Positions 15,329-49,473 of a stretch of 64,000 nucleotides of DNA are shown here, piece by piece. The notes under the pieces were generated by a model. That model saw nothing but the letters and a program-made list of their open reading frames with translations. It was not told the origin of the DNA and ran no database searches. The DNA comes from Echinarachnius parma (taxonomy: Eukaryota > Echinodermata > Echinoidea > Clypeasteroida > Echinarachniidae). The stretch is taken from contig JBAMJV010008492.1 in NCBI GenBank assembly GCA_037951105.1, positions 1 through 64,000 on the forward strand, given 5' to 3'. The translations under genes and the position numbers were made by a program. The stretch's first letter is position 1. Every line of letters starts with the position of its first letter.

Positions 15329-15336
15329 AATGGAGA

Positions 15337-16137
15337 CAGGCGCGCCGGAAGCAGTTTTGGATTGGGGGGGGGGCAAAGACCTAAGGCGGCTCACGATTTT
15401 TTTCCTAGGGGCTCATGCCCATGCAATCACACTCACAGGGTTGCCAACTTTGAGCCAGAGGTGAGGGTGAGACATTGCAAGGGAGCGAAGTGACTGCGCG
15501 GGGGGAGGGTGTGGGAGGGGTGCCCCCCTCCCACGGTAGAGAGCTTTTGCATTTTTGGACTTGAAATTGTGCAATCTGGTGCATACCTAGATAGGAAATT
15601 CGGGATTAAGATTAACTGTACCTAGGAAAGCGTGTTATGATTTGATCGACCAGAAATTTGAAATATATTTTTCACGAAGAAAATAAATGACACACTAATG
15701 AATATCCACCCCAACACACACAAATGTTGTATTTAGTGTCATACACAGTTCAAACATAAACCATATGCTACATTATGTATGATCCAATAACATAGCCTAC
15801 AGCCAAGAATGAGTCCCGAGGGAGCTAAGCGACCGAGGGCTGGGGCAGAGCCAGAGGTGAAGGGTTTGGGAGGGGGTATCCCCCTCCCACGGGGAAGATT
15901 TTCTGGAAATTTTTCTGGATTTTCTGCAATTTGGTGCACGTCACACAAGCAGCCAGAGAAATGCCAGCCTAGACGGGAAATACGTGGCCCACAGAAAAAG
16001 TACTCACCCCAGACCATACGCAAGTTACACAAGCTCATACATGCTATCTTTTCTTTCCCACTCTTCTTCTTCTTTTTTTTTCGGGGGGGGGGGGCCCTGC
16101 CCCCCCCCCCCCCCCCCCCCCACTTCCGGCGCCTATG
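15337..16137 (-). mobile_element. Inner hAT-type copy forming one end of unit A
   Basis: This ~800-bp block has both termini: CATAGGCGCCGGAAG (reverse strand, at 16137) and the CTTCCGGCGCGCCTG end at 15337. It would be a complete short element by itself. Internal features are long G and C runs, a TTTCTTTCCCACTC stretch and a GGGAGGGGGTATCCCCCTCCC-type hairpin. Its outer end is also the outer end of the whole 6.5-kb unit. Confidence 0.7.
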
Positions 16138-16368
16138 AAATAGGGTTAGATTTTTTCAAATGCCCCTTTAGTATCACGATATCTATCATTCAGCTCAAAA
16201 GCGTTAACAAACGGTCATAAACCTCATAAACGTCCGTTGTAAAAGCTGACGCATATTTTCGCCTTTTTAACCAGGAAAGCAGTGTTCTTTTTCAATGAAA
16301 CTTTCACACATCATTCGGACATATCTGACACTTTACAGGCCTCTTAAACACCAATTTCAAATGTGTGC

Positions 16369-16370
<2 letters not shown>

Positions 16371-16408
<38 letters not shown>

Positions 16409-16460
16409 GCGTGTGCGTGTGCGTGTGCGTGTGCGTGTGTGTATGTGTGTATGTGTATGT
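16371..16460. repeat. (GT)n/(GTGTGC)n microsatellite
   Basis: Perfect GT run followed by GTGTGC hexamers and GTAT words. The same tract occurs inverted in unit B (about 30693-30795) and unit C (about 37655-37745), with different repeat numbers. Confidence 0.9.
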
Positions 16461-17119
16461 GTGGCATGGGTGTGGCGAGATGCGGTCAACCGTGTAATGT
16501 CTGAACCTTCACAAACACACTAACACACATGCACACCCAACGAGCTTTTGTGCGTCTGGCGCCCGTCTGGCGCCAAAACTGTTCAATAATAATGTAGCAG
16601 CCCAGCTAATAACTAGAAAGTTATAAAGAAGGGTCGGTATAAAAAGTCCCAATCCTGTTAATTCGTATAAGCTTTGATTTGGCTTTTTCCCATGCATACC
16701 AGGGCCCCATCATTATGTAATAACGTTCTCTCATTTTGAAAGGATGTTCAGTAAACCATTTCAAGAAATTAAAGTACGCATTGAGATGGCAGCCCCTCTA
16801 AGTATATAAGAATATACAAATATTCATAATAGGAGCGCGTAAACAAATTCGACATGGTTGATTTGTTATGGTCTTTTGTTGCACTACTCTAAGAAGGAGA
16901 CAAATTCTGAGGGATAATTGCCTTGACTTAATTAACACTCCTGAAGGAAGGATAACTAAAGAGATCGATTTATCCTAAAAATGAATAAAAAACGCCCGAC
17001 ATAAATGACCTACTTTACTTTAAAACCTTTCTATCGCCATGTAGACAAGATTCTTGTCGAAAGCGCGCAGCGAAAACTTAAAATGAATGTATAAATTAGT
17101 TTTTGAACGTGAGAATTAA

Positions 17120-17427
17120 AGGGAAAGTTGAGTTCTGGTAGAGAGAGTACAGTTTTTAGTCAAACTGAATTTTAGTAACCAAAACCTGCACCATTATATT
17201 ACAAACTAATAGTTATAACTCCACCATGCTCAAAAGGAATAAACACATTACAAACGACTAAGTAAAAAGCCTGTAATCCTTCAAAAAGAGCTGTTTAAAC
17301 TAAAGAGGGCACTTTCAAAAAATGCATTTGTTTAAACCATTTAAAATAAAATATTGTGCATGTGATGTTTTGTTGAAATAGTGATTAGGCTAGATAGAGA
17401 GATAATCAACAACTATCTAAAAACCTC
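17120..17427. mobile_element. Half of a TTAA-type MITE, beside the LINE 3' end (unit A)
   Basis: Starts after TTAA at 17116-17119 with AGGGAAAGTTGAGTTCTGG and is homologous to the second half of the intact element at 48914-49473. The LINE (AAATG)n tail joins it at about 17428. The other half is absent on the far side of the LINE, so the insertion was accompanied by loss or rearrangement. Confidence 0.7.
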
Positions 17428-17897
17428 TTTTTCATTTCATTTCATTTTATTTCCAATAATATAAAAACATCAAAATTACAAAGAATTCGAGTACAAAATT
17501 AATATTGCATTGTAACATAGATATGACGGAGTAAAATCAAAAATATAATATTGTAGAATGATCAATAAAACTGGAAATATGGGAATTGTCCGCAAAGCAA
17601 AAGCTTGAAGGAAGGACAACCCGTTGTCAAAAGGCAAATATAGTTTTAATCCAAATAATACAATTAAGACTCCATATTATATCACTAAAATTAACAAAAA
17701 ATAAACAGGAAGGAGAAGCCGGTGCAACCCGTCCTCCCCCCCCCCCCCCCCCCCCCACCCCAACCCCACCCCGGTCTGTGAGTTATCACTATAAACAATA
17801 ATATCCTTAACTACAAACATTCACATTATATGATTATACAGTATTCCACATTCATTACTACGTATTTATAAATACCTCGTTTAACACACAAAACAAA

Positions 17898-20874
17898 TTA
17901 TTCTGTTACACATGCATACGACTTGTACAGTTTCTTTTTTAGAGTAGATTTAAAGGAAAATAACGATGAACATTGTTTCACATCAACTGATAGGGAGTTC
18001 CAAATGTCTGGTCCACAGTGTCTAATTGATTTACATGCTACAATAGTTTTGGGATTGGTAACATGAAAGTCGTCACGATTTCTTGTGCTATAGTTATGAA
18101 TCTGATTATTACGTATAAACATATCACAAAATCGATCAGGAAGGTTCTTATGAGTACATTTATACATAAATATAGCGATTTGATAATAATTAATATCACA
18201 TAATTTTAACAATCTGTGTTCATTAAACAAGGGGTCCGTATGAGCTAGATAATCTGAGTTAGTACATAGTCTGAGAGCTTTTTTCTGTAATATAAGTAGA
18301 GAATCTGTGTTTTTCTTGGTGGTTTGGCCCCATGCGATATTGCAATAAAGCAAATATGGCAATATGAGAGAATTATATAAAATAATCATAACGTAAGTCG
18401 GTAATAAGCCTTTTAATTTATATAACACTCCGATTGATTTTGATATGGTCGAAATTATGTATGAACAATGTTGATTCCAATTCAAATTATCATCAATAAT
18501 GACCCCTAAGAATTTACTATAATATTTGCGTTCTAAATGATAATTATCAATAACAATATCACATATGGTATCATCAATTTGAGTTCGGGGACCCTTAAAT
18601 ATAATATAATTTGTTTTAGATAAATTGAGGGATAATTTGTTGCAAGCGAACCATTCAACAAGTTTAGGCAATTCAATATTTACGGAACGAATTAATTCAT
18701 TAAATTGAGGGTGTGAGCATAAAACATTAGTGTCGTCTGCAAATAGTACATAAGAAAATAATGATGACGCATTAATAATATCGTTTATATAAATGAGAAA
18801 CAACAATGGTCCTAAGATTGACCCTTGCGGGACGCCACAATTCAATTCTAGGATGGATGATTGTTCCGTACCAAATTCAACAAATTATTTTCTATTCAAA
18901 AGATAATCATTCAACCATAATAAAGGAACTCCTCGTATACCGTAGTATTCTAGTTTGTATAGTAAAATCTGGTGATTAAGGGTATCGAAAGCCTTCGATA
19001 AGTCAAAGAATAATCCAATTACATAATGCTTTTTGGCTAGTAACATAGAGATGTTATCATATAAGTCTACTACAGCTAATTCGGTTGAGTGGTTCTTACG
19101 AAAACCATACTGGTTTGAGCAAAGTATATTTTGTTGCATTAAAAATTCATATAATTGATTATGTACTATTCGTTCCAGTATTTTAGAAATACTTAGTAAT
19201 ATGGATATTGGTCTATAGTTAATACATTGTTTTGAGTCTCCCTTTTTTATAGATTGGTACAACCTTCGCTAACTTGAATGAATCTAAAAAAATACCAGTT
19301 GAAATAGATAAATTAAAAATGTAACATAGAGGGTCAGCTATATAATAAATAATCTTCTTCAACAACCAAGAACTGATTTCATCATGACCACAAGATTTGC
19401 TTGATTTAAGGTTTTTTGTAATATCAATTATATCAGTTGCTTGCACTGGCTTAAAAAAGAGGGATTTCTCTGAACGTTCAGAAAGAAAATCAACAAATAC
19501 TTTATTAGGAGAATTTATAGACGCTTGTATGTCTGTCCCAATTGACACAAAATATTCATTAAATAAATTGGCAATGCCATTATCAGTACATGATGATTGA
19601 TTACCATGAAACATTTCCTTTGGAATTTCAGCTTTTTTCCCTTTACCTAATACATTATTAATTACGGCCCATGTTAAAGACACGTTACCTTTCACCTTAT
19701 TTAGCTGGTCAGCATAATACATTTTACGAGAAGCTTTAATTACAGCGTTCAATTTATTACGATATTTTTTAAAATTATCGTGATGTGAGGAATCATCAGG
19801 ATTGCGTATATAAAGTTTAAATAAATTATTTGTTTTATTAATAGATTTCATTATACCTTTTGTTATCCACGGTTTACGTATATTTAATTTTTTATTCTTC
19901 ACTTTCTTTAAAGGTATATTTTTTTCAAAATATTTTTTCAACCGTATATAAAACAATGCATATGCTTTATTTACGTCATTTGTTTCTTTATAAACTAAAA
20001 ACCAATTTTCGTGTGCTAAGTCACGAATAAGAGATTTTACATTACTATCATTACACTGTCGAGTATATCTACTCTCGTTACTAACAGAGGACATCTTTAT
20101 TTTTTTACAAAATACAAAAATTGGAAGGTGATCTGATACATCACTATATATAATACCACTATGAAATGCAGCAGGTAATATGTTTGTAAATATATTGTCA
20201 ATTAGTGTTGCTGATTGCTGAGTAATCCTTGTAGGTTTATCTATTAGAGGGAATAAAGAGTGTGTATTCAGACACGTCAAAAATGAATTATTCTTCAATT
20301 CCTTTTCTGCTAATAACAAGTTTATGTTAAAGTCGCCCATTAAATATAAAGGTTTCCCACCTTTGCATACAGATTCAATACACATGTCCAGATTAGTTAT
20401 AAATGTATCAATAAAAGAACTGGGTGGGCGATAAACAATACCTATTACAACGTTTTTACCATGTGGATTTATAATTTCAATAAAGAGCGTTTCACATTCA
20501 GGAATTAATGGTACACCATTTAACAAATTATAAGAAAGACCCTTTTTTATATACATGGCCACTCCACCACCTCGGCCGTTTGGGCGATCAGAACGTAACA
20601 ATGTATAATCTTCTAGGTCAAAGAGTGCTGGTGACTGTACATTCAACCATGTTTCACTTAAGCCAATAACAGAGAATGGGTGTTGTAGTGATGAGAGTAA
20701 TGATTGAAGGGATTCAAAGTTACGGTTAAGACTTCGTGTATTCAAGTGTAATAGACTAAAATCGTCACGGTTGTCACGTTCATTTATCCTGGATTTGAGT
20801 TCTTCTGGTAGGTAATAATGGCATTCAATAGATGGGTTTAATCTATTATCATCACTTTCTAAAACCTTATTCAT
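17898..20874 (-). pseudogene. LINE endonuclease-reverse transcriptase in unit A, dead
   Basis: Non-LTR retrotransposon frame of about 992 codons, starting ATG at 20874. The endonuclease shows LLHLNTRSL, LSETWL, VYRPP, MGDFNI and SDHLPIF. The reverse transcriptase shows FDLSKAFDTLNH, GVPQGSILGPLLF, FADDTN and FLGVIIDDN. There are two lesions. An extra A in the run before GGGAGACTC (about 19249-19254) shifts the frame at IYKKG. An in-frame TAA at 18885-18887 follows NRK, where the relative at 8751 has Gln (CAA) in the same context. The stop is shared with copies B and C and the frameshift with B only. The protein is in the same family as the 8751 LINE but clearly divergent. It ends with an (AAATG)n tail near 17428-17450 rather than poly(A). 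Confidence 0.9.
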
Positions 20875-21884
20875 AGTATTATTCTAGGATTAATAAGGTA
20901 CTTTGACATGTTGTTGGTAACACTTTGACATGTGTACATATAGACTAGATAATGAGTGTGTGTTTTCAATTTAAAATAAGCTGTCCAAAAAAGGTTGTAG
21001 CGTTCAACTTTGCAGAATACATTTTATAGGTAATTAGCAGGATATTATTTGTACAATATAAACCAAAAAAGAACGAAGTTAACTTGAGCATGGAAGCAAA
21101 TTAAACAAAATTAAAAAACAAAATGAATGATATACCCACAAAGTAATTACAAAATGTATGAAAATAAATTCAAAATTTGTGAAAACAAATATTACAGTTC
21201 ATAAAAGAACAGAACAATAAGTAAGAAGAAACAACGGTATTGAAGTGTTGAATCAGATTTACATTAAATATAAATGCATATATTATAACAAATGAATAGA
21301 AAGATTTGTATCAATTCAAAAGCAAATACCAGAATATCAGGCATAACTAAAAATCAAACGATCGTGCCATCGTATAGTGTTTATTTTATAATTCTTAAAA
21401 GTTCAGTGTTCTAAAGAAAAGAGAACAAAAATTAGAGTCCGTTCCGTGCCATCAGGCACAATAAAAAGTGTATATTTCACTTGTCCTATTTAAATTACAG
21501 TGTTCATAAAACATAACAAAGTGAAGGTCCATTCTTTCAACAACAAAAAAATTGGTGCACTTCATGCCATACTTGTGAAGGAAATTTAGAATCCGAGTTA
21601 TAAAAAAAAGAGTGAAATGTCTATGCTCTTATCAGATGTTTAAAACAAACTGAGGTAGTCTATTCGCGCGCGAAGCGCGCAGCGAAAATTGAAAATTGAT
21701 GTATAAACTTGTTTTTGAACGTTAGCTCATACATTTGATTTTGTCTTTCCCACTCTTTTTTTATTTTATTTTTTTTGGGGGGGCTTTTTGGGGGGGCAAA
21801 ATTGCGTTTTGCCCCCCCACTTTTTGGATTGGGGGGGCGGCCGCCCCCCTGCCCCCCCCCACTTCCGGCGCCTATGAATGGAGA

Positions 21885-22562
21885 TTTAGCTTTGAAGTCC
21901 AAAACAACGTCACATCTTTGCTGGGGGTCTGCACAAAAATGTTAACATGGCAGTCTCCATGTTAGTACGGGACGCCGCAAACAAATTATTTGTGTCGTCT
22001 TTTTGCGAGATTGGTGTGGCCTCATCAGTGTGCCATTTTTGGTGATTTGTATATCAGATTAATGCTCTCGGTGTCGCAAACGAACTAGCATAGATGAAAT
22101 GCTATCATTTTGGTTCGTTTAAGTATTTCGTCAATCCATTGTGAATCAGTAAACGATTAAAGGTTCAAGATTTCCCCCTTTTCGTCCGCATGTACGCATT
22201 TCTTTAGGGTTCACAAAATGACATGAATATGAAGAAGTAATTTGCAATATTATGAAAACATCACAGCATGTTTCTGTCGCATAGAGTAAGTCTTACGCAT
22301 GTTCAATACTGTACATCTTATCCTCCTCAGACTGACGCATCAAACTCCCTAACCGACCTTTGAATGACTGGACTCGCCCTTGTCGATGACAACGGATGGC
22401 ACGATTGATGTTGTTTGTTCTAAATCGACGCTATACCGGCTATATAGTCTCACCGTATTGGTTTTTCCGTTGCATATTTTGTAACTAAATGTAGTTGTAT
22501 ATTGTTCTAAATTACAATTGTATCTCATCCGGTACTTGTTTTCACCAATAACTGTTCTGATT
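21885..22562. other. No gene recognised
   Basis: Spacer between unit A and a TTAA-type MITE. No coding or structured feature is visible. Confidence 0.5.
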
Positions 22563-22566
22563 TTAA

Positions 22567-23052
22567 AGGGTTAGTGCAGTTTTGGTTCAGAGGGCGCTTC
22601 AAGAAATAACTAATGTTTGAGGTAATAAAAAACTAAGTGTAGTATTTGGAAGAGCACCTGGTTTTAAAAATAAAACAAACATTATTTAATAAAAATCGGA
22701 TCAGAAAGAGCTGAAAATCAATAAATATATCCGATTGGATAAATGTGGGACGCACAATTATTCAACAATCAAAAACAAAATCTATATAATGCCTACATTT
22801 CTTCCAAAATATACCAATGGTGTTTTAAAATAGTCGTTAATGGTCTCTCTATTGGATCATTATGTTAACTAAACATCACATTCACAATTTGTTATAAAAA
22901 AATGGTTGAAACCAATAATTATGTTTTAGAGAGCGCCCTCTTGTGTTTTAACGGCTGTTTTTTTTTTAAAATGATAACAGCATTTTTTTGTAATAACATG
23001 GAGCAAGTTTTGGTTACTTACATTAAGTTTTACAAGAACTGCACTATTCCTT
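22567..23052. mobile_element. TTAA-flanked MITE (piggyBac- or Kolobok-type)
   Basis: The left end AGGGTTAGTGCAGTT and the reverse-complemented right end AAGGAATAGTGCAGTT form imperfect inverted repeats. TTAA lies on both sides (22563-22566 and 23053-23056). An AGAGGGCGC motif near each end is shared with the longer relative at 48914. The 486 bp encode no protein. TTAA duplications are used by both piggyBac and Kolobok elements, and I cannot choose between them. Confidence 0.75.
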
Positions 23053-23370
23053 TTAAGAATTCCCCACATTATTAGCTGATAGGTATATCATACGTTTCAT
23101 CTTTTTGATTTCATCAAGGTTTTATTATCATTATATTATTATTATTATTATTTCTTCCCAATGTCGCAAAGTCGCATATCTCAAGAATGGATGACTGCAT
23201 TGTCATGAAACTGTGCATGATAAAGACCTTGAACTTTCCAGTAACGAATCTCACTGTGACGTAATCAGGACGCCATTTTGTAAAAGTTCATTAATAGCCA
23301 TATCCCAGTCGGTAGCGACTTTCGGGTTCGTGGCAAGTGTACGAAAGTCGTTGAGCTTTCATAATATACT

Positions 23371-25218
23371 CAGCGCAAAAAGAAACAGGACACTTATTTA
23401 AGACAAAATAACTCATATTTTTTAGTGATAAAATATCTGTTATTGCATATCAAATTAAAGATAAAATTACCCTCTTCGATATTAGCATAGAATCCAGGAG
23501 AAATCATTCATGCATGACTTGTCATGGTCAATTAACCACCGCAAGGTCTTAAATGTCTTTAAATGTTGACAAGCATGATATAAACGCTATATTCATGACA
23601 TGGCATAATTATTTCATTACAACATTTAGTTTCATCTCAATAGAAAACGTGTAAATGAAGACAAACTGTGAACGTTGTAGGTTTTATTTTCATCCAAATG
23701 TAACAAAATGGGGAATTCCATGGCTAAGGTTTATTCGTCGAAACTACAGTTTGTGCCCTTATTTCAACATTAAAATTGGTATAAATTCTTCTCAAAAAAT
23801 TCGACCGTAATCCAAAAATCTTCAAAATCTGATTTCACCCTTGGTCAACCATTTGGGCAGTCTCTAACATGTTACTTATCTAGGTAACTATGGTGGAAAT
23901 TGCAAGGGACACATGAAACAGACAAGCTTTATGCCTCAAAACAAACCAATATGACTGTTGATGTTTTCATAACCTGGCCCAGTTTTATTGGAAAATGTGT
24001 ATTTTTGTTCAAGACAATAAGGTTGAATGGTGTCATAAAAGACCTGCCCCGCAAATCTTGTTTCAATCAAGACGCTTACTCATTGCAGTCGAATGGTGCG
24101 GTCATCCATTGTTTTTGCTTTTTTTGAAAACAGACCATGCTATTGTTAATTGATCATGGCAGTTCATGCATGAACGATTACACCTTTAATTCATATTCTG
24201 CCTGTAGAGGACTAAATTTCCTTTAATTTGATATATACACTCTGTCGTACATGAATATTAATTATTTCATTGCCTGCGTTCACACGGTAAAAGCCTAACT
24301 CGTGGTTATCTTGTGGTTTCCAAACCACAAGATAACCACAAGATACTTTAAGATTTTGCGCAATCTATTTTGTTTACCGTCTGAACACAATCAACTTCGA
24401 GACTCGTAGTTTAGGTTGACCTCATGAACGAGATATGCTTCCGGTGTGAAAACAAGTCAAGTGAGTGCGCGCGACCTCAAATGAGAAAGGCGCGCACACT
24501 ACTTCTGGTTTTAATTCTTAAGAATAGCCGTATTCAGACGATGAAAGCCAAGTTCTTAAGAATTGCAATTCTTAAGAATTGCAATTCTTAAGAACTTCAA
24601 AATGTGTGTTCAAACGATGCCAATTCTCGAGAGTTGCAATTCTTAAGAATTAAAACCGGAAGTAGCATGCGCGCCTTTCTCATTTGAGGTCACGCGCGCT
24701 CACTTGACTTGTTTTCACACCGGAAGCATATCTCGGTCATGAGGTCAACCCAAACCACGAGTCTCGAAGCTGATTGTGTTCAGACGGTACAAAAAGTAAC
24801 TGCGCGCAGTCGCGCGCTTATCGCGGGCTCATTCTGCGCAAAATCTTACAAGTATCTTGTGGTTATCTTGTGGTTTGCAAACCACAAGATAACCACAAGA
24901 TAACCACGAGATTGCGCATTTTTTGCAGTGTGCGCAATCTCGTGGTTTGGAAACCACAAGATAACCACGAGTTTTTGCGTGTTCAAACGAGCGCAAACCA
25001 CAAGATATTCTTAAGAATTGCAAACCACAAGATAACCACAAGATAACCACGAGATTTGCTTTTATCGTCTGAATGCGGCTAATTACAACTCTCGAGAATT
25101 GGCATCGTTTGAACACACATTTTGCAATTCTTAAGAGTTGCAATTCTTAAGAATTGCAACTCTTAAGAATTGGCTTTCATCGTGTGAACACGACTAACTT
25201 AAACAAGTGTCCTGTTCA
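23371..25218. mobile_element. Inverted-repeat element, interrupted by a foldback element
   Basis: AACAGGACACTT near 23384 is mirrored by AAGTGTCCTGTT at 25205-25216. Inner arms also pair: ATATCAAATTAAAG near 23448 with its complement near 24215, and the CATTCATGCATGACTTG region near 23507 with its complement near 24165. The left end reads TACTCAGCGCAAAAAGAAAC, which is mariner-like. The right outer end differs beyond 25218, so it is truncated or rearranged. The insert at about 24269-25196 splits the right arm. No transposase is present. Confidence 0.55.
24269..25196. mobile_element. Foldback element of nested inverted modules
   Basis: Outer ends GCGTTCACACGGTAAAAGCC and, inverted, GTGTTCACACGATGAAAGCC form diverged terminal repeats. 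Inside, arms of about 160 bp at about 24369-24535 and 24635-24800 are inverted copies, sharing TTGACTTGTTTTCACACCGG and CTCATTTGAGGTC. Two short motifs are repeated in both orientations: CTTAAGAATTGCAATTCTTAAG and AACCACAAGATAACCAC. Phrases of the form TTCANACGRT recur at module borders. It is non-coding. The target duplication is unclear. Confidence 0.6.
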
Positions 25219-26292
25219 GGGGGGTGTCACTGCTGCCAGAGTGCAGCGATTTTTGCTCACCGGAAGAGCCCACAACTGGTTGCATTATGGGCATAGGCGC
25301 CGGAAGTGGGGGGGCAGGGGGGGCGGCCGCCCCCCCAATCCAAAAAGTGGGGGGGCAAAACGCAATTTTGCCCCCCCAAAAAGCCCCCCCCCAAAAAATA
25401 AAATAAAAAAAGAGTGGGAAAGACAAAATCAAATGTATGAGCTAACGTTCAAAAACAAGTTTATACATCAATTTTCAATTTTCGCTGCGCGCTTCGCGCG
25501 CGAATAGACTACCTCAGTTTGTTTTAAACATCTGATAAGAGCATAGACATTTCACTCTTTTTTTTATAACTCGGATTCTAAATTTCCTTCACAAGTATGG
25601 CATGAAGTGCACCAATTTTTTTGTTGTTGAAAGAATGGACCTTCACTTTGTTATGTTTTATGAACACTGTAATTTAAATAGGACAAGTGAAATATACACT
25701 TTTTATTGTGCCTGATGGCACGGAATGGACTCTAATTTTTGTTCTCTTTTCTTTAGAACACTGAACTTTTAAGAATTATAAAATAAACACTATACGATGG
25801 CACGATCGTTTGATTTTTAATTATGCCTGATATTCTGGTATTTGCTTTTGAATTGATACAAATCTTTCTATTCATTTGTTATAATATATGCATTTATATT
25901 TAATGTAAATCTGATTCAACACTTCAATACCGTTGTTTCTTCTTACTTATTGTTCTGTTCTTTTATGAACTGTAATATTTGTTTTCACAAATTTTGAATT
26001 TATTTTCATACATTTTGTAATTACTTTGTGGGTATATCATTCATTTTGTTTTTTAATTTTGTTTAATTTGCTTCCATGCTCAAGTTAACTTCGTTCTTTT
26101 TTGGTTTATATTGTACAAATAATATCCTGCTAATTACCTATAAAATGTATTCTGCAAAGTTGAACGCTACAACCTTTTTTGGACAGCTTATTTTAAATTG
26201 AAAACACACACTCATTATCTAGTCTATATGTACACATGTCAAAGTGTTACCAACAACATGTCAAAGTACCTTATTAATCCTAGAATAATACT

Positions 26293-29270
26293 ATGAATAA
26301 GGTTTTAGAAAGTGATGATAATAGATTAAACCCATCTATTGAATGCCATTATTACCTACCAGAAGAACTCAAATCCAGGATAAATGAACGTGACAACCGT
26401 GACGATTTTAGTCTATTACACTTGAATACACGAAGTCTTAACCGTAACTTTGAATCCCTTCAATCATTACTCTCATCACTACAACACCCATTCTCTGTTA
26501 TTGGCTTAAGTGAAACATGGTTGAATGTACAGTCACCAGCACTCTTTGACCTAGAAGATTATACATTGTTACGTTCTGATCGCCCAAACGGCCGAGGTGG
26601 TGGAGTGGCCATGTATATAAAAAAAGGGTCTTTCTTATAATTTGTTAAATGGTGTACCATTAATTCCTGAATGTGAAACGCTCTTTATTGAAATTATAAA
26701 TCCACATGGTAAAAACGTTGTAATAGGTATTGTTTATCGCCCACCCAGTTCTTTTATTGATACATTTATAACTAATCTGGACATGTGTATTGAATCTGTA
26801 TGCAAAGGTGGGAAACCTTTATATTTAATGGGCGACTTTAACATAAACTTGTTATTAGCAGAAAAGGAATTGAAGAATAATTCATTTTTGACGTGTCTGA
26901 ATACACACTCTTTATTCCCTCTAATAGATAAACCTACAAGGATTACTCAGCAATCAGCAACACTAATTGACAATATATTTACAAACATATTACCTGCTGC
27001 ATTTCATAGTGGTATTATATATAGTGATGTATCAGATCACCTTCCAATTTTTGTATTTTGTAAAAAAATAAAGATGTCCTCTGTTAGTAACGAGAGTAGA
27101 TATACTCGACAGTGTAATGATAGTAATGTAAAATCTCTTATTCGTGACTTAGCACACGAAAATTGGTTTTTAGTTTATAAAGAAACAAATGAGGTAAATA
27201 AAGCATATGCATTGTTTTATATACGGTTGAAAAAATATTTTGAAAAAAATATACCTTTAAAGAAAGTGAAGAATAAAAAATTAAATATACGTAAACCGTG
27301 GATAACAAAAGGTATAATGAAATCTATTAATAAAACAAATAATTTATTTAAACTTTATATACGCAATCCTGATGATTCCTCACATCACGATAATTTTAAA
27401 AAATATCGTAATAAATTGAACGCTGTAATTAAAGCTTCTCGTAAAATGTATTATGCTGACCAGCTAAATAAGGTGAAAGGTAACGTGTCTTTAACATGGG
27501 CCGTAATTAATAATGTATTAGGTAAAGGGAAAAAAGCTGAAATTCCAAAGGAAATGTTTCATGGTAATCAATCATCATGTACTGATAATGGCATTGCCAA
27601 TTTATTTAATGAATATTTTGTGTCAATTGGGACAGACATACAAGCGTCTATAAATTCTCCTAATAAAGTATTTGTTGATTTTCTTTCTGAACGTTCAGAG
27701 AAATCCCTCTTTTTTAAGCCAGTGCAAGCAACTGATATAATTGATATTACAAAAAACCTTAAATCAAGCAAATCTTGTGGTCATGATGAAATCAGTTCTT
27801 GGTTGTTGAAGAAGATTATTTATTATATAGCTGACCCTCTATGTTACATTTTTAATTTATCTATTTCAACTGGTATTTTTTTAGATTCATTCAAGTTAGC
27901 GAAGGTTGTACCAATCTATAAAAAAGGGAGACTCAAAACAATGTATTAACTATAGACCAATATCCATATTACTAAGTATTTCTAAAATACTGAAACGAAT
28001 AGTACATAATCAATTATATGAATTTTTAATGCAACAAAATATACTTTGCTCAAACCAGTATGGTTTTCGTAAGAACCACTCAACCGAATTAGCTGTAGTA
28101 GACTTATATGATAACATCTCTATGTTACTAGCCAAAAAGCATTATGTAATTGGATTATTCTTTGACTTATCGAAGGCTTTCGATACCCTTAATCACCAGA
28201 TTTTACTATACAAACTAGAATACTACGGTATACGAGGAGTTCCTTTATTATGGTTGAATGATTATCTTTTGAATAGAAAATAATTTGTTGAATTTGGTAC
28301 GGAACAATCATCCATCCTAGAATTGAATTGTGGCGTCCCGCAAGGGTCAATCTTAGGACCATTGTTGTTTCTCATTTATATAAACGATATTATTAATGCG
28401 TCATCATTATTTTCTTATGTACTATTTGCAGACGACACTAATGTTTTATGCTCACACCCTCAATTTAATGAATTAATTCGTTCCGTAAATATTGAATTGC
28501 CTAAACTTGTTGAATGGTTCGCTTGCAACAAATTATCCCTCAATTTATCTAAAACAAATTATATTATATTTAAGGGTCCCCGAACTCAAATTGATGATAC
28601 CATATGTGATATTGTTATTGATAATTATCATTTAGAACGCAAATATTATAGTAAATTCTTAGGGGTCATTATTGATGATAATTTGAATTGGAATCAACAT
28701 TGTTCATACATAATTTCGACCATATCAAAATCAATCGGAGTGTTATATAAATTAAAAGGCTTATTACCGACTTACGTTATGATTATTTTATATAATTCTC
28801 TCATATTGCCATATTTGCTTTATTGCAATATCGCATGGGGCCAAACCACCAAGAAAAACACAGATTCTCTACTTATATTACAGAAAAAAGCTCTCAGACT
28901 ATGTACTAACTCAGATTATCTAGCTCATACGGACCCCTTGTTTAATGAACACAGATTGTTAAAATTATGTGATATTAATTATTATCAAATCGCTATATTT
29001 ATGTATAAATGTACTCATAAGAACCTTCCTGATCGATTTTGTGATATGTTTATACGTAATAATCAGATTCATAACTATAGCACAAGAAATCGTGACGACT
29101 TTCATGTTACCAATCCCAAAACTATTGTAGCATGTAAATCAATTAGACACTGTGGACCAGACATTTGGAACTCCCTATCAGTTGATGTGAAACAATGTTC
29201 ATCGTTATTTTCCTTTAAATCTACTCTAAAAAAGAAACTGTACAAGTCGTATGCATGTGTAACAGAATAA
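26293..29270 (+). pseudogene. LINE endonuclease-reverse transcriptase in unit B, dead
   Basis: Same LINE as in unit A, with the same motifs in order: endonuclease LSETWL, GDFNI, SDHLPIF; reverse transcriptase SKAFDTLNH, GVPQGS, FADDTN. There are three lesions: a private extra A at about 26618-26627 (frame shift after MYIKKG), the +1 A at about 27918-27926 shared with A, and TAA at 28281-28283 after NRK shared with A and C. Otherwise the predicted residues are almost identical to A and C. The upstream segment to about 25512 is presumably the LINE 5' UTR and lacks a second ORF. Confidence 0.9.
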
Positions 29271-29738
29271 TTTGTTTTGTGTGTTAAACGAGGTATTTAT
29301 AAATACGTAGTAATGAATGTGGAATACTGTATAATCATATAATGTGAATGTTTGTAGTTAAGGATATTATTGTTTATAGTGATAACTCACAGACCGGGGT
29401 GGGGTTGGGGTGGGGGGGGGGGGGGGGGGGAGGACGGGTTGCACCGGCTTCTCCTTCCTGTTTATTTTTTGTTAATTTTAGTGATATAATATGGAGTCTT
29501 AATTGTATTATTTGGATTAAAACTATATTTGCCTTTTGACAACGGGTTGTCCTTCCTTCAAGCTTTTGCTTTGCGGACAATTCCCATATTTCCAGTTTTA
29601 TTGATCATTCTACAATATTATATTTTTGATTTTACTCCGTCATATCTATGTTACAATGCAATATTAATTTTGTACTCGAATTCTTTGTAATTTTGATGTT
29701 TTTATATTATTGGAAATAAAATGAAATGAAATGAAAAA

Positions 29739-30046
29739 GAGGTTTTTAGATAGTTGTTGATTATCTCTCTATCTAGCCTAATCACTATTTCAACAAAACA
29801 TCACATGCACAATATTTTATTTTAAATGGTTTAAACAAATGCATTTTTTGAAAGTGCCCTCTTTAGTTTAAACAGCTCTTTTTGAAGGATTACAGGCTTT
29901 TTACTTAGTCGTTTGTAATGTGTTTATTCCTTTTGAGCATGGTGGAGTTATAACTATTAGTTTGTAATATAATGGTGCAGGTTTTGGTTACTAAAATTCA
30001 GTTTGACTAAAAACTGTACTCTCTCTACCAGAACTCAACTTTCCCT
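29739..30046. mobile_element. Half of a TTAA-type MITE, beside the LINE 3' end (unit B)
   Basis: Homologous to the right half of 48914-49473, ending CTCAACTTTCCCT followed by TTAA at 30047-30050. It joins the LINE (AAATG)n tail directly. The same junction is present in units A and C. Confidence 0.7.
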
Positions 30047-30757
30047 TTAATTCTCACGTTCAAAAACTAATTTATACATTCATTTTAAGTTTTCGCTGCG
30101 CGCTTTCGACAAGAATCTTGTCTACATGGCGATAGAAAGGTTTTAAAGTAAAGTAGGTCATTTATGTCGGGCGTTTTTTATTCATTTTTAGGATAAATCG
30201 ATCTCTTTAGTTATCCTTCCTTCAGGAGTGTTAATTAAGTCAAGGCAATTATCCCTCAGAATTTGTCTCCTTCTTAGAGTAGTGCAACAAAAGACCATAA
30301 CAAATCAACCATGTCGAATTTGTTTACGCGCTCCTATTATGAATATTTGTATATTCTTATATACTTAGAGGGGCTGCCATCTCAATGCGTACTTTAATTT
30401 CTTGAAATGGTTTACTGAACATCCTTTCAAAATGAGAGAACGTTATTACATAATGATGGGGCCCTGGTATGCATGGGAAAAAGCCAAATCAAAGCTTATA
30501 CGAATTAACAGGATTGGGACTTTTTATACCGACCCTTCTTTATAACTTTCTAGTTATTAGCTGGGCTGCTACATTATTATTGAACAGTTTTGGCGCCAGA
30601 CGGGCGCCAGACGCACAAAAGCTCGTTGGGTGTGCATGTGTGTTAGTGTGTTTGTGAAGGTTCAGACATTACACGGTTGACCGCATCTCGCCACACCCAT
30701 GCCACACATACACATACACACATACACACACGCACACGCACACGCACACGCACACGC

Positions 30758-30797
<40 letters not shown>

Positions 30798-31028
30798 GCA
30801 CACATTTGAAATTGGTGTTTAAGAGGCCTGTAAAGTGTCAGATATGTCCGAATGATGTGTGAAAGTTTCATTGAAAAAGAACACTGCTTTCCTGGTTAAA
30901 AAGGCGAAAATATGCGTCAGCTTTTACAACGGACGTTTATGAGGTTTATGACCGTTTGTTAACGCTTTTGAGCTGAATGATAGATATCGTGATACTAAAG
31001 GGGCATTTGAAAAAATCTAACCCTATTT

Positions 31029-31821
31029 CATAGGCGCCGGAAGTGGGGGGGGGGGGGGGGGCAGGGCCCCCCCCCCCCGAAAAAAAAAGAAGAAGAAGTG
31101 TGGGAAAGAAAAGATAGCATGTATGAGCTTGTGTAACTTGCGTATGGTCTGGGGTGAGTACTTTTTCTGTGGGCCACGTATTTCCCGTCTAGGCTGGCAT
31201 TTCTCTGGCTGCTTGTGTGACGTGCACCAAATTGCAGAAAATCCAGAAAAATTTCCAGAAAATCTTCCCCGTGGGAGGGGGATACCCCCTCCCAAACCCT
31301 TCACCTCTGGCTCTGCCCCAGCCCTCGGTCGCTTAGCTCCCTCGGGACTCATTCTTGGCTGTAGGCTATGTTATTGGATCATACATAATGTAGCATATGG
31401 TTTATGTTTGAACTGTGTATGACACTAAATACAACATTTGTGTGTGTTGGGGTGGATATTCATTAGTGTGTCATTTATTTTCTTCGTGAAAAATATATTT
31501 CAAATTTCTGGTCGATCAAATCATAACACGCTTTCCTAGGTACAGTTAATCTTAATCCCGAATTTCCTATCTAGGTATGCACCAGATTGCACAATTTCAA
31601 GTCCAAAAATGCAAAAGCTCTCTACCGTGGGAGGGGGGCACCCCTCCCACACCCTCCCCCCGCGCAGTCACTTCGCTCCCTTGCAATGTCTCACCCTCAC
31701 CTCTGGCTCAAAGTTGGCAACCCTGTGAGTGTGATTGCATGGGCATGAGCCCCTAGGAAAAAAATCGTGAGCCGCCTTAGGTCTTTGCCCCCCCAATCCA
31801 AAACTGCTTCCGGCGCGCCTG
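31029..31821 (+). mobile_element. Inner hAT-type copy forming the right end of unit B
   Basis: It begins CATAGGCGCCGGAAG, like the outer left end of the unit, and ends with the unit's CTTCCGGCGCGCCTG terminus. The 8 bases before it (CCCTATTT) are not repeated after it. This is expected if its right flank was lost when the whole composite moved using this right end. Confidence 0.7.
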
Positions 31822-31829
31822 ATTATGGG

Positions 31830-32221
31830 CTACTTGGGAACTACAGTTAACCAATCACAGAGTAGTTCAAACGCGTCGTCACGGGATCGAGGTCAATAAA
31901 ACAAGTTCATATGCATACGTCACAATGGCTCCCGTTGTTCTCATAAGCGTGATGAAATCTAGGACAGTGCGCAGGAAAATAGGCGCGATAGTCTACGCAC
32001 TGCATAGGCATGATGATTGGTCCAGTATTTCTAGGTCACTACGCGATGACGTAGAGAAGTGGGCTACGGGAGCTTCAAAAATCGGTTCACTCCGCCATGT
32101 TGCCCATGTACAAAGTCTATGGGACACGTGACTTGCGCGCGTTAAGTGAGCCTTCTAGTTATAAACGGGTTGGTTTGTTTATTCATACTTCTATGGTCCT
32201 GTTTCTTTTCGTGCGCAGTAT
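31830..32221. other. Spacer between units B and C, no gene
   Basis: Unique DNA of moderate GC. A short frame at 31925-32131 has no recognised domain and I do not call it. Only about 740 bp separates units B and C. Confidence 0.45.
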
Positions 32222-32465
32222 GAGCTCGCTTCCAAAAGGCGCTAAATCCACTTTCCATAAAAATTGAGTTAACGATATATATATACATGTATTATCTACG
32301 TAGCTATCTAGGAATCCACATTTGACGACAAATAACTCACTCAAAATCAAAATATAAAAAGTTCAATTTTCATATTCCCATAGGCACGTGTACAAATTGG
32401 GACAAAGAAACCTGTTTTCCTCGGAAGTTGAAAAAGTGGATTTAGCGCCTTTTGGTTGAAAGCTC
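32222..32465. mobile_element. Small inverted-repeat element (MITE-like)
   Basis: AAAAGGCGCTAAATCCACTTT-type arms near 32233 and 32434 are inverted copies of at least 20 bp, extended outward by imperfect AGCTCGCTTCC and AGCTTTCAACC. About 180 bp separate them. It is non-coding. No confident target duplication was found. Confidence 0.6.
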
Positions 32466-33251
32466 TTGCACGCGCGCGACCGCGGACTTGCAACACGTCT
32501 GAAATGTGTACGATTGTTTTATGATTTCTGCATTTGTTTGTGTTTTAGTAAACAAAATCAAAAAACATTTCCTTTACTCATAGGCGCCGGAAGTGGGGGG
32601 GCAGGGGGGGCGGCCGCCCCCCCAATCCAAAAAGTGGGGGGGCAAAACGCAATTTTGCCCCCCCAAAAAGCCCCCCCAAAAAAAATAAAATAAAAAAAGA
32701 GTGGGAAAGACAAAATCAAATGTATGAGCTAACGTTCAAAAACAAGTTTATACATCCATTTTCAATTTTCGCTGCGCGCTTCGCGCGCGAATAGACTATT
32801 TGCTTTTGAATTGATACAAATCTTTCTATTCATTTGTTATAATATATGCATTTATATTTAATGTAAATCTGATTCAACACTTCAATACCGTTGTTTCTTC
32901 TTACTTATTGTTCTGTTCTTTTATGAACTGTAATATTTGTTTTCACAAATTTTGAATTTATTTTCATACATTTTGTAATTACTTTGTGGGTATATCATTC
33001 ATTTTGTTTTTTAATTTTGTTTAATTTGCTTCCATGCTCAAGTTAACTTCGTTCTTTTTTGGTTTATATTGTACAAATAATATCCTGCTAATTACCTATA
33101 AAATGTATTCTGCAAAGTTGAACGCTACAACCTTTTTTTGGACAGCTTATTTTAAATTGAAAACACACACTCATTATCTAGTCTATATGTACACATGTCA
33201 AAGTGTTACCAACAACATGTCAAAGTACCTTATTAATCCTAGAATAATACT

Positions 33252-36227
33252 ATGAATAAGGTTTTAGAAAGTGATGATAATAGATTAAACCCATCTATTG
33301 AATGCCATTATTACCTACCAGAAGAACTCAAATCCAGGATAAATGAACGTGACAACCGTGACGATTTTAGTCTATTACACTTGAATACACGAAGTCTTAA
33401 CCGTAACTTTGAATCCCTTCAATCATTACTCTCATCACTACAACACCCATTCTCTGTTATTGGCTTAAGTGAAACATGGTTGAATGTACAGTCACCAGCA
33501 CTCTTTGACCTAGAAGATTATACATTGTTACGTTCTGATCGCCCAAACGGCCGAGGTGGTGGAGTGGCCATGTATATAAAAAAGGGTATTTCTTATAATT
33601 TGTTAAATGGTGTACCATTAATTCCTGAATGTGAAACGCTCTTTATTGAAATTATAAATCCACATGGTAAAAACGTTGTAATAGGTATTGTTTATCGCCC
33701 ACCCAGTTCTTTTATTGATACATTTATAACTAATCTGGACATGTGTATTGAATCTGTATGCAAAGGTGGGAAACCTTTATATTTAATGGGCGACTTTAAC
33801 ATAAACTTGTTATTAGCAGAAAAGGAATTGAAGAATAATTCATTTTTGACGTGTCTGAATACACACTCTTTATTCCCTCTAATAGATAAACCTACAAGGA
33901 TTACTCAGCAATCAGCAACACTAATTGACAATATATTTGCAAACATATTACCTGCTGCATTTCATAGTGGTATTATATATAGTGATGTATCAGATCACCT
34001 TCCAATTTTTGTATTTTGTAAAAAAATAAAGATGTCCTCTGTTAGTAACGAGAGTAGATATACTCGACAGTGTAATGATAGTAATGTAAAATCTCTTATT
34101 CGTGACTTAGCACACGAAAATTGGTTTTTAGTTTATAAAGAAACAAATGACGTAAATAAAGCATATGCATTGTTTTATATACGGTTGAAAAAATATTTTG
34201 AAAAAAATATACCTTTAAAGAAAGTGAAGAATAAAAAATTAAATATACGTAAACCGTGGATAACAAAAGGTATAATGAAATCTATTAATAAAAAAAATAA
34301 TTTATTTAAACTTTATATACGCAATCCTGATGATTCCTCACATCACGATAATTTTAAAAAATATCGTAATAAATTGAACGCTGTAATTAAAGCTTCTCGT
34401 AAAATGTATTATGCTGACCAGCTAAATAAGGTGAAAGGTAACGTGTCTTTAACATGGGCCGTAATTAATAATGTATTAGGTAAAGGGAAAAAAGCTGAAA
34501 TTCCAAAGGAAATGTTTCATGGTAATCAATCATCATGTACTGATAATGGCATTGCCAATTTATTTAATGAATATTTTGTGTCAATTGGGACAGACATACA
34601 AGCGTCTATAAATTCTCCTAATAAAGTATTTGTTGATTTTCTTTCTGAACGTTCAGAGAAATCCCTCTTTTTTAAGCCAGTGCAAGCAACTGATATAATT
34701 GATATTACAAAAAACCTTAAATCAAGCAAATCTTGTGGTCATGATGAAATCAGTTCTTGGTTGTTGAAGAAGATTATTTATTATATAGCTGACCCTCTAT
34801 GTTACATTTTTAATTTATCTATTTCAACTGGTATTTTTTTAGATTCATTCAAGTTAGCGAAGGTTGTACCAATCTATAAAAAGGGAGACTCAAAACAATG
34901 TATTAACTATAGACCAATATCCATATTACTAAGTATTTCTAAAATACTGGAACGAATAGTACATAAACAATTATATGAATTTTTAATGCAACAAAATATA
35001 CTTTGCTCAAACCAGTATGGTTTTCGTAAGAACCACTCAACCGAATTAGCTGTAGTAGACTTATATGATAACATCTCTATGTTACTAGCCAAAAAGCATT
35101 ATGTAATTGGATTATTCTTTGACTTATCGAAGGCTTTCGATACCCTTAATCACCAGATTTTACTATACAAACTAGAATACTACGGTATACGAGGAGTTCC
35201 TTTATTATGGTTGAATGATTATCTTTTGAATAGAAAATAATTTGTTGAATTTGGTACCGAACAATCATCCATCCTAGAATTGAATTGTGGCGTCCCGCAA
35301 GGGTCAATCTTAGGACCATTGTTGTTTCTCATTTATATAAACGATATTATTAATGCGTCATCATTATTTTCTTATGTACTATTTGCAGACGACACTAATG
35401 TTTTATGCTCACACCCTCAATTTAATGAATTAATTCGTTCCGTAAATATTGAATTGCCTAAACTTGTTGAATGGTTCGCTTGCAACAAATTATCCCTCAA
35501 TTTATCTAAAACAAATTATATTATATTTAAGGGTCCCCGAACTCAAATTGATGATACCATATGTGATATTGTTATTGATAATTATCATTTAGAACGCAAA
35601 TATTATAGTAAATTCTTAGGGGTCATTATTGATGATAATTTGAATTGGAATCAACATTGTTCATACATAATTTCGACCATATCAAAATCAATCGGAGTGT
35701 TATATAAATTAAAAGGCTTATTACCGACTTACGTTATGATTATTTTATATAATTCTCTCATATTGCCATATTTGCTTTATTGCAATATCGCATGGGGCCA
35801 AACCACCAAGAAAAACACAGATTCTCTACTTATATTACAGAAAAAAGCTCTCAGACTATGTACTAACTCAGATTATCTAGCTCATACGGACCCCTTGTTT
35901 AATGAACACAGATTGTAAAAATTATGTGATATTAATTATTATCAAATCGCTATATTTATGTATAAATGTACTCATAAGAACCTTCCTGATCGATTTTGTG
36001 ATATGTTTATACGTAATAATCAGATTCATAACTATAGCACAAGAAATCGTGACGACTTTCATGTTACCAATCCCAAAACTATTGTAGCATGTAAATCAAT
36101 TAGACACTGTGGACCAGACATTTGGAACTCCCTATCAGTTGATGTGAAACAATGTTCATCGTTATTTTCCTTTAAATCTACTCTAAAAAAGAAACTGTAC
36201 AAGTCGTATGCATGTGTAACAGAATAA
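33252..36227 (+). pseudogene. LINE endonuclease-reverse transcriptase in unit C, two stops
   Basis: The best-preserved copy of the cargo LINE, open in one frame for 992 codons except two stops. TAA at 35238-35240 after NRK is shared with A and B. TAA at 35916-35918 is private: TTA became TAA in the HRLLKLC context. The endonuclease spans roughly residues 35-240 (LLHLNTRSL, LSETWL, MGDFNI, SDHLPIF). The reverse transcriptase spans roughly residues 510-850, with motif A FDLSKAFDTLNH, motif B GVPQGSILGPLLF and catalytic FADD. It lacks the IYKKG frameshift of A and B. The C-terminal part matches other CR1/Jockey-type LINEs in layout. Confidence 0.92.
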
Positions 36228-37712
36228 TTTGTTTTGTGTGTTAAACGAGGTATTTATAAATACGTAGTAATGAATGTGGAATACTGTATAATCATATAAT
36301 GTGAATGTTTGTAGTTAAGGATATTATTGTTTATAGTGATAACTCACAGACCGGGGTGGGGTTGGGGTGGGGGGGGGGGGGGGGGAGGACGGGTTGCACC
36401 GGCTTCTCCTTCCTGTTTATTTTTTGTTAATTTTAGTGATATAATATGGAGTCTTAATTGTATTATTTGGATTAAAACTATATTTGCCTTTTGACAACGG
36501 GTTGTCCTTCCTTCAAGCTTTTGCTTTGCGGACAATTCCCATATTTCCAGTTTTATTGATCATTCTACAATATTATATTTTTGATTTTACTCCGTCATAT
36601 CTATGTTACAATGCAATATTAATTTTGTACTCGAATTCTTTGTAATTTTGATGTTTTTATATTATTGGAAATAAAATGAAATGAAATGAAAAAGAGGTTT
36701 TTAGATAGTTGTTGATTATCTCTCTATCTAGCCTAATCACTATTTCAACAAAACATCACATGCACAATATTTTATTTTAAATGGTTTAAACAAATGCATT
36801 TTTTGAAAGTGCCCTCTTTAGTTTAAACAGCTCTTTTTGAAGGATTACAGGCTTTTTACTTAGTCGTTTGTAATGTGTTTATTCCTTTTGAGCATGGTGG
36901 AGTTATAACTATTAGTTTGTAATATAATGGTGCAGGTTTTGGTTACTAAAATTCAGTTTGACTAAAAACTGTACTCTCTCTACCAGAACTCAACTATCCC
37001 TTTAATTCTCACGTTCAAAAACTAATTTATACATTCATTTTAAGTTTTCGCTGCGCGCTTTCGACAAGAATCTTGTCTACATGGCGATAGAAAGGTTTTA
37101 AAGTAAAGTAGGTCATTTATGTCGGGCGTTTTTTATTCATTTTTAGGATAAATCGATCTCTTTAGTTATCCTTCCTTCAGGAGTGTTAATTAAGTCAAGG
37201 CAATTATCCCTCAGAATTTGTCTCCTTCTTAGAGTAGTGCAACAAAAGAGCATAACAAATCAACCATGTCGAATTTGTTTACGCGCTCCTATTATGAATA
37301 TTTGTATATTCTTATATACTTAGAGGGGCTGCCATCTCAATGCGTACTTTAATTTCTTGAAATGGTTTACTGAACATCCTTTCAAAATGAGAGAACGTTA
37401 TTACATAATGATGGGGCCCTGGTATGCATGGGAAAAAGCCAAATCAAAGCTTATACGAATTAACAGGATTGGGACTTTTTATACCGACCCTTCTTTATAA
37501 CTTTCTAGTTATTAGCTGGGCTGCTACATTATTATTGAACAGTTTTGGCGCCAGACGGGCGCCAGACGCACAAAAGCTCGTTGGGTGTGCATGTGTGTTA
37601 GTGTGTTTGTGAAGGTTCAGACATTACACGGTTGACCGCATCTCGCCACACCCATGCCACACATACACATACACACATACACACACGCACACGCACACGC
37701 ACACGCACACGC

Positions 37713-37748
<36 letters not shown>

Positions 37749-37979
37749 GCACACATTTGAAATTGGTGTTTAAGAGGCCTGTAAAGTGTCAGATATGTCC
37801 GAATGATGTGTGAAAGTTTCATTGAAAAAGAACACTGCTTTCCTGGTTAAAAAGGCGAAAATATGCGTCAGCTTTTACAACGGACGTTTATGAGGTTTAT
37901 GACCGTTTGTTAACGCTTTTGAGCTGAATGATAGATATCGTGATACTAAAGGGGCATTTGAAAAAATCTAACCCTATTT

Positions 37980-38021
37980 CATAGGCGCCGGAAGTGGGGG
38001 GGGGGGGGGGGGGGGGCAGGG

Positions 38022-38060
<39 letters not shown>

Positions 38061-38786
38061 AAGAGTGGGAAAGAAAAGATAGCATGTATGAGCTTGTGTA
38101 ACTTGCGTATGGTCTGGGGTGAGTACTTTTTCTGTGGGCCACGTATTTCCCGTCTAGGCTGGCATTTCTCTGGCTGCTTGTGTGACGTGCACCAAATTGC
38201 AGAAAATCCAGAAAAATTTCCAGAAAATCTTCCCCGTGGGAGGGGGATACCCCCTCCCAAACCCTTCACCTCTGGCTCTGCCCCAGCCCTCGGTCGCTTA
38301 GCTCCCTCGGGACTCATTCTTGGCTGTAGGCTATGTTATTGGATCATACATAATGTAGCATATGGTTTATGTTTGAACTGTGTATGACACTAAATACAAC
38401 ATTTGTGTGTGTTGGGGTGGATATTCATTAGTGTGTCATTTATTTTCTTCGTGAAAAATATATTTCAAATTTCTGGTCGATCAAATCATAACACGCTTTC
38501 CTAGGTACAGTTAATCTTAATCCCGAATTTCCTATCTAGGTATGCACCAGATTGCACAATTTCAAGTCCAAAAATGCAAAAGCTCTCTACCGTGGGAGGG
38601 GGGCACCCCTCCCACACCCTCCCCCCGCGCAGTCACTTCGCTCCCTTGCAATGTCTCACCCTCACCTCTGGCTCAAAGTTGGCAACCCTGTGAGTGTGAT
38701 TGCATGGGCATGAGCCCCTAGGAAAAAAATCGTGAGCCGCCTTAGGTCTTTGCCCCCCCAATCCAAAACTGCTTCCGGCGCGCCTG
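37980..38786 (+). mobile_element. Inner hAT-type copy forming the right end of unit C
   Basis: Same block as in A and B. Its G and C runs after GGCGCCGGAAGTGG are longer than in B, indicating homopolymer expansion or assembly uncertainty. Confidence 0.68.
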
Positions 38787-38794
38787 CCTTTACT

Positions 38795-48909: not shown

Positions 48910-48913
48910 TTAA

Positions 48914-49473
48914 AGGGATAGTTGAATTTTGGTAGAGAGGGCGCTACATACAATAATTTGTTTGTGAGATAATGGAAAACTGAGTGTCAAATCTGTAAGA
49001 GCATACAATTTTCATGGCAGAATAAACTTTATTTGCCAAAATCGGTTCAGAAACGGCTGAAATATCCATAAAAATTTGTAATATATGTGGGGCCCCTCAA
49101 GTATTCGATAATTTTGAACCAGCCGTTAAAATTCGTTTTAAAATTATTTCTCTTTTCAAAAAATGTTTCAAAGAGTTTTTTAGATAGTTGTTGATTATCT
49201 CTCTATTTAATCACTATTCCAACAAAACATCACATGTACAATATTTTATTTTAAATGGTTTAAACAAATGTATTTTTTGAAAACGCCCTCTTTAGTTTAA
49301 ATAGCTCCTTTTAATGATAACAGGCTTTTTGCTTAGTCGTTTGTAATTTTTGTATTCCTTTTGAGCATGGTTGAGTTATAATTATTAGTTTGTAATGTAA
49401 TGGTGCAGGTTTTGGTTACTAACATTCATTTTGACTAAAACTGTACTCTCTCTACCAGAACTCAACTATCCCT
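48914..49473. mobile_element. Intact TTAA-flanked MITE, 560 bp
   Basis: The inverted ends share AGGGATAGTTGA, a 2-3 base variable step and TGGTAGAGAG. TTAA flanks it at 48910-48913 and 49474-49477. An AGGGCGC motif and a TTTTGACTAAAACTGTACTC region lie near the ends. Its right half is the sequence fused to the LINE tail in units A, B and C. Non-autonomous, piggyBac- or Kolobok-type. Confidence 0.8.

Follow-up and report, generated by a model that had tools for sequence, protein, structure and literature searches.

Among the systems described so far, the closest to the locus reported here are maize Ds elements enlarged by retrotransposons and the Ac/Ds macrotransposons, the latter reportedly treated by Huang and Dooner in 2008. 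In one report, Ds and Ds-like elements contain insertions of long terminal repeat (LTR) retrotransposons, a compound Ds-like element is described, and size alone is argued to be no bar to transposition (PMC3260210). Two further reports describe macrotransposons and composite insertions in which hAT ends move long intervening DNA, nested retrotransposons included (PMC4270019, PMC9910405), and for Ac, local jumps that raise the copy number during replication have been described (PMC9910405). For a hAT-carried long interspersed nuclear element (LINE), the titles and abstract openings in short listings of open-access papers offered no clear precedent, which is not proof of absence. The locus lies in the echinoid Echinarachnius parma, on contig JBAMJV010008492.1 (GCA_037951105.1), of which positions 1 to 64,000 are hereafter called the window; the contig is C8477 of the searched assembly (1.2 Gb, 14,790 contigs). 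With a probability of roughly 0.9, a LINE entered an existing mobile hAT copy here, and the loaded element then transposed, leaving three copies.

The locus is like Ds in that a non-autonomous hAT element was enlarged by a retrotransposon and is compound, with a truncated second copy, and unlike it in that the passenger is a 5'-truncated LINE, that its entry went with loss of host-element DNA, and that three loaded copies with distinct duplications stand beside LINE-free relatives in one genome (PMC3260210). With the Ac/Ds macrotransposons it shares that long DNA between hAT ends is moved as a unit and can rise in number, whereas there the ends of two neighbours are paired and here one pre-existing element was invaded (PMC4270019, PMC9910405). 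Retrotransposons inside hAT elements are already known; the present locus contributes a LINE passenger, its LINE-free relatives, empty sites for two of the three units and a candidate transposase source.

The three copies, units U1, U2 and U3, and their target duplications are as follows.

15337..21876, minus strand: unit U1, hAT element with LINE fragment, from termini and duplication; 99.7% identical to U2
25292..31821, plus strand: unit U2, from termini, duplication and alignment
32579..38786, plus strand: unit U3, lacking 329 bp that U1 and U2 have, from termini, duplication and alignment
15329..15336: target duplication of U1, one side, read as TCTCCATT in the unit's orientation
21877..21884: target duplication of U1, other side
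25284..25291: target duplication of U2, left, ATTATGGG
31822..31829: target duplication of U2, right, ATTATGGG
32571..32578: target duplication of U3, left, CCTTTACT
38787..38794: target duplication of U3, right, CCTTTACT

An earlier note on this DNA had placed three units here with the same two termini and a perfect 8-bp duplication of their own, and direct reading confirms it: the units, 6.2-6.5 kb long and lying within 24 kb in both orientations, have the same 15-base termini and a distinct perfect duplication each (3/3). The termini, CATAGGCGCCGGAAG and CAGGCGCGCCGGAAG, are terminal inverted repeats with 12 of 15 bases equal in inward reading. Random position pairs in the window shared an 8-mer in 16 of 200,000 cases, so that three matching duplications out of three would be expected by chance with a probability of about 5e-13. 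The left terminus, CATAGGCGCCGGAAG, occurs 1,241 times in forward and 1,266 times in reverse orientation genome-wide (reversed control, 0), and the ends are therefore part of a large family.

Empty sites, which the earlier note had proposed to look for in other individuals or related species, were searched in the window's own genome with the joined flanks of each unit as query. For U2 (one ATTATGGG) each of 45 rows crossed the joint, with a printed identity of 100% over 205-207 bp in 32, and a single row, on C2170, covered the whole query at 93%; the target is a young high-copy repeat that starts ~75 bp left of the insertion. For U1 the joint was crossed in 40/40 rows at 93-97%, and a 30-base joint pattern had 11 hits, all of which differ from it by one and the same base within the 8-mer (no hit for the reversed control). 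U1 and U2 thus have empty sites in the genome; for U3 the indication is weak. The U2 target repeat (window 25216-25291 plus 31822-31959) gave 42 matches printed at 98-100% among the 45 listed, so that it was itself recently amplified. Directly left of U2, window 24296-25200 is dense in palindromic and inverted-repeat sequence.

Inside the units, the LINE is followed by half of a miniature inverted-repeat transposable element (MITE) of TTAA type and, further on, by a block called B. In the lines below, ORF stands for open reading frame.

25292..25618, plus strand: hAT left part of U2, common to LINE-free family copies up to 25618
25619..25632, plus strand: filler between hAT and LINE, ~14 nt, matching neither
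25633..29735, plus strand: LINE in U2, 5'-truncated, with endonuclease and reverse transcriptase, (ATGAA)n tail and interrupted ORF2
17431..21534, minus strand: LINE in U1 (derived coordinates)
32799..36690, plus strand: LINE in U3, short of ~200 bp at its start owing to the 329-bp deletion (derived coordinates)
29736..30050, plus strand: right half of the TTAA MITE in U2; the left half is absent, as is the preceding DNA
17116..17430, minus strand: right half of the TTAA MITE in U1
36691..37005, plus strand: right half of the TTAA MITE in U3
31029..31821, plus strand: block B of U2, which starts with a further hAT left end inside the unit and runs as far as the outer right end; also in the LINE-free element on C1853
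15337..16137, minus strand: block B in U1
37980..38786, plus strand: block B in U3
48910..49477, plus strand: complete TTAA MITE of the family of the half MITE

The passenger matches Pfam Exo_endo_phos and RVT_1, and with endonuclease and reverse transcriptase, a simple 3' tail and the common 5' truncation it has traits expected of a LINE inserted by target-primed reverse transcription; the (ATGAA)n tail is common to other copies of its family. It had been called nearly complete, which it is not: it starts at 25633, ~100 bp 3' of where a related copy (L041) has its ORF1 frame, without ORF1, and ORF2 is broken in U1, U2 and U3. Related LINE copies, in pairs with L041 that run through, are alike for ~680 to 1,250 bp upstream of 25633. 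The best match outside the units, on C12999 (99.5% over one part read and 99.2% over the other), has a 292-residue open frame upstream, ORF1-like by position and without Pfam match, the whole of which is missing in the units.

Both junctions of the LINE were searched genome-wide, with the best 40 of 1,751 candidates (LINE/MITE) and the best 40 of 1,828 (hAT/LINE 5') scored. Over the junction of LINE tail and half MITE, 3 of the 40 align along the full query, which are U1, U2 and U3, all in the window, and the other 37 stop in or shortly past the LINE tail. For the 5' junction there were 41 rows, of which U1 and U2 are the two that align along the full query (the deletion in U3 takes this junction out), and the remaining rows split into hAT matches that stop at 25618 or earlier and LINE matches that start at 25633-25635. 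As a separate observation, in six of the 27 LINE-tail loci read (L031-L035, L038) the 186-bp tail of the units' LINE is joined to one downstream sequence (ATTGTCCAGGGGGTAG...), a junction that belongs to a second dispersed repeat with LINE-derived sequence.

Elsewhere in the genome, LINE-free relatives bear the same ends. One of them, C1853:9592-13007 (minus strand; 3,416 bp), has both outer termini, each of them bordered by a copy of the duplication CCCATGGT. Inside it are found, besides the hAT left part, a complete TTAA MITE (~90% to 48910-49477) and block B with an internal left-end motif, and one stretch is 99.1% identical to window 29735-30704 (the MITE half and the sequence after it). 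The half MITE of the earlier note is borne out by comparison with the complete copy in the window; the full short hAT-type copy that the note described is likewise present (in U2 at 31029-31821), but is part also of the LINE-free C1853 element. Both outer ends with 8/8 duplications are further found, without the LINE, in C3709 (ATGTTGGC), in C5551 and C10066 (TATACACA; probably one insertion seen twice, since the flanks are identical) and in C3029 (GGAGAGGT), as well as in the short elements C20 (TGGTGCAC) and C12 (CTGGTGCA). Besides the three units, a duplication is thus present in 7 of the 8 copies with left and right outer ends on one strand (C1853, C3709, C5551, C10066, C3029, C20 and C12; C17 fails). 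This count leaves out copies of which one end only was found or read (C1421, C1068, C13807, C7374, C3489, C5993, C8707, C1815, C10467, C5782, C6507, C14714, C3032, C69, C6183 and further loci with a single end).

The stretch that the LINE replaces, measured as the distance from the hAT left part to the MITE right half, is present in nine of ten distinct copies, some of them read partially, with 460-531 bp in eight (C1853, listed twice as L046 and L069, C3709, C1421, C5551, C7374, C6183, C13807 and C8707) and 1,059 bp in C69; C3029, the tenth, gave no result in this spacing test. Since LINE-free elements have the same ends and ~0.5 kb of them is replaced, the LINE landed in a hAT copy that already bore the outer ends, and was not trapped between two hATs. 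The units show no target site duplication of the LINE, and instead a ~0.5-kb deletion relative to nine of the ten copies tested. Such a duplication is usual for LINEs, not universal, and a LINE insertion with deletion of target DNA fits the structure. LINE-1 insertions with target deletion, 5'-truncated and with DNA at the site removed, are reportedly known; the units are like them in the truncated 5' end and the DNA loss, and unlike them in that the deletion lies inside another transposon, which then propagated it.

Two of the LINE-free copies carry other inserts of ~2.5-3 kb near a (CA)n stretch, C3709:4650-8150 (L097) and C3029:31650-34950 (L098), the latter with ~290-bp inverted ends that are 90% alike; compared with each other the two are unlike, and neither matches the units' LINE part. 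Block B was also considered as an independent element with duplications of its own and rejected: nine B-type copies (L110-L127) differ in their left flanks and share the right flank, save single bases, in 9/9, so that their right end is internal to a longer element and they afford no duplication test.

The best of the other explanations is macrotransposition proper, in which transposase would have paired the left end of one hAT with the right end of its neighbour and so mobilised everything between them, an existing LINE included. The outer ends of the units do come from different hAT blocks, a further left-end motif lies within the units, and internal right ends are seen in C12419 and the nine B-type copies as well. 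This explanation is nevertheless improbable, as C1853 combines the same outer ends, block B, a complete MITE and an 8-bp duplication with no LINE, and as the LINE replaces ~0.5 kb of a C1853-like element. Macrotransposition may, however, be the origin of the LINE-free ancestor, not of the LINE entry, and by analogy with Ac/Ds both this ancestor and C12419, with its three right ends, may be of macrotransposon-like origin.

As to the superfamily, both hAT and P elements give 8-bp duplications and start with CA. The genome contains 34 matches to the hAT-dimerisation domain and 30 to the P-element domain, the latter number leaving room for a P-type family; of these, six hAT-type and four P-type stretches of ~5 kb each were read, and the units' termini were found on one of the six, with both ends, versus none of the four, which makes a P assignment very unlikely. 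The one with the termini is a 13.2-kb hAT element, C12419:11964-25152 (L100, L109), with its left end at 25152 (94% over 119 bp), its right end at 11964 (91% over 98 bp) and a frame of 853 residues with DUF4371 and Dimer_Tnp_hAT above cut-off. It has the matching termini that the earlier note had asked of an autonomous hAT, and is a candidate source of transposase. Its termini were recognised by direct comparison with the units' ends; a terminal-repeat search in the ten transposase stretches gave no pair, C12419 included, the right end of which lies outside the stretch. A comparison of its transposase with solved structures gave no related sequence at E 0.001. The family thus combines the 8-bp duplication, short terminal inverted repeats and a candidate transposase with matching termini, which may act on its own element or in trans, as is expected of a hAT. 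The tandem unit in C12419 measures 3.69 kb and is 99.7-99.8% identical between copies, hence the three right ends.

An assembly artefact, by which one unit would have been placed three times through mis-joined reads, might be suspected in an assembly of so many contigs, and is more unlikely still. U1 and U2 are 99.7% identical across the whole unit by BLAST, U3 is ~99.4% identical to either along 6.0 kb, with 98.2-98.6% in the first 220 bp, and 6,193 gap-free columns contain 8 (U1/U2), 12 (U1/U3) and 14 (U2/U3) substitutions; the units differ also in run lengths and by the 329-bp deletion, and each has different flanks and its own duplication. Aligned with 300 bp of flank, all 200-column bins inside the units are 97.5-100% identical, the U3 deletion excepted, and in all three pairs similarity drops to background level where the units end, so that the continued homology which the earlier note had named as a refutation is not seen. 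Segmental duplication or ectopic gene conversion of one unit to two other places, which three near-identical copies in 24 kb might suggest, can be practically dismissed given the different perfect 8-mers at the same termini, the lack of homology outside the units and the uninterrupted empty-site repeats for U1 and U2.

Several observations count against entry of the LINE into a mobile hAT copy followed by transposition. An exact copy of the U1 joint was not found in the genome pattern search; the U3 joint was spanned at 92% in one place (C4051) and at 68% in three, with a short match at 80% (63 rows), and its pattern gave 0 matches in the genome with up to 3 mismatches. That there are only three loaded copies is valid for the top-scoring matches of the two junction searches. 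C17, both ends of which were read, has no matching flanks, nor do the short elements C337 and C357 (inverted left ends). In C12419 the flanks GCGGTGTT/GCGGTGTC are equal in 7/8 only, and the right-hand part, with the C-terminal part of the transposase and the right end, is triplicated in tandem. Finally, the nine distinct 8/8 duplications depart from nTnnnnAn, with T at position 2 in 3/9 and A at position 7 in 1/9, although this consensus of Ac-type duplications is a subgroup trait and not defining for all hATs.

That hAT-type ends moved the block with its LINE, as the earlier note held, is supported by the distinct duplications, the empty sites of U1 and U2, the LINE-free relatives and C12419. 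The history would have started from a non-autonomous, patchwork hAT element of ~3.4 kb, already mobile by these outer ends. One LINE, 5'-truncated and without ORF1, would then have inserted into its internal TTAA MITE, with the LINE 5' end joining hAT DNA ~0.5 kb upstream, the intervening DNA being deleted, presumably in the same step, and ~14 nt of filler left. The outer ends would still have been recognised by a hAT transposase that acted in trans, provided by a relative like C12419, and the 6.5-kb element would have been moved by it; the outcome would be the three copies in both orientations within 24 kb; we infer both a C12419-type transposase as the actual mover and the order of the jumps. 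The clustering of the units suggests local jumping with copy gain, and the copies may have multiplied by jumps during DNA replication or by copy-back from the sister strand. The earlier statement that the composite inserted three times is upheld as to the distinct duplications and has to be relaxed as to the number of moves: the LINE/MITE junction common to the three units implies at least two jumps with the LINE aboard, not necessarily three, and one of the three sites may be the original landing site of the LINE.

The locus offers a near-complete natural record, readable in one genome, of a retrotransposon turned passenger of a cut-and-paste transposon. Dead LINE DNA can in this way multiply without RNA, a net gain of ~3.6 kb did not stop the hAT element, and passenger LINE copies are relevant wherever LINE insertions are counted by copy number. 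A broader and distinctly tentative idea, based on the LINE in the units, the differing inserts in C3709 and C3029 and the triplicated transposase block at C12419, is that this hAT family repeatedly builds composites that have several internal ends, and serves as a platform that spreads foreign DNA, retrotransposon DNA multiplying without RNA included.

Other repeats are present in the window. Two direct repeats of 770 bp, at 3423-4192 and 6200-6968, are 99.4% identical and 2 kb apart, and are possibly the LTRs of a young element. Three further reverse-transcriptase frames are found at 10230-11747 (plus strand), 41959-43032 (minus strand) and 52599-53531 (plus strand). At 55361-58759 a short unit forms long arrays, both inverted and tandem, that are ~68-82% alike, and a GIY-YIG frame at 59084-59959 (minus strand) may point to Penelope-like elements.

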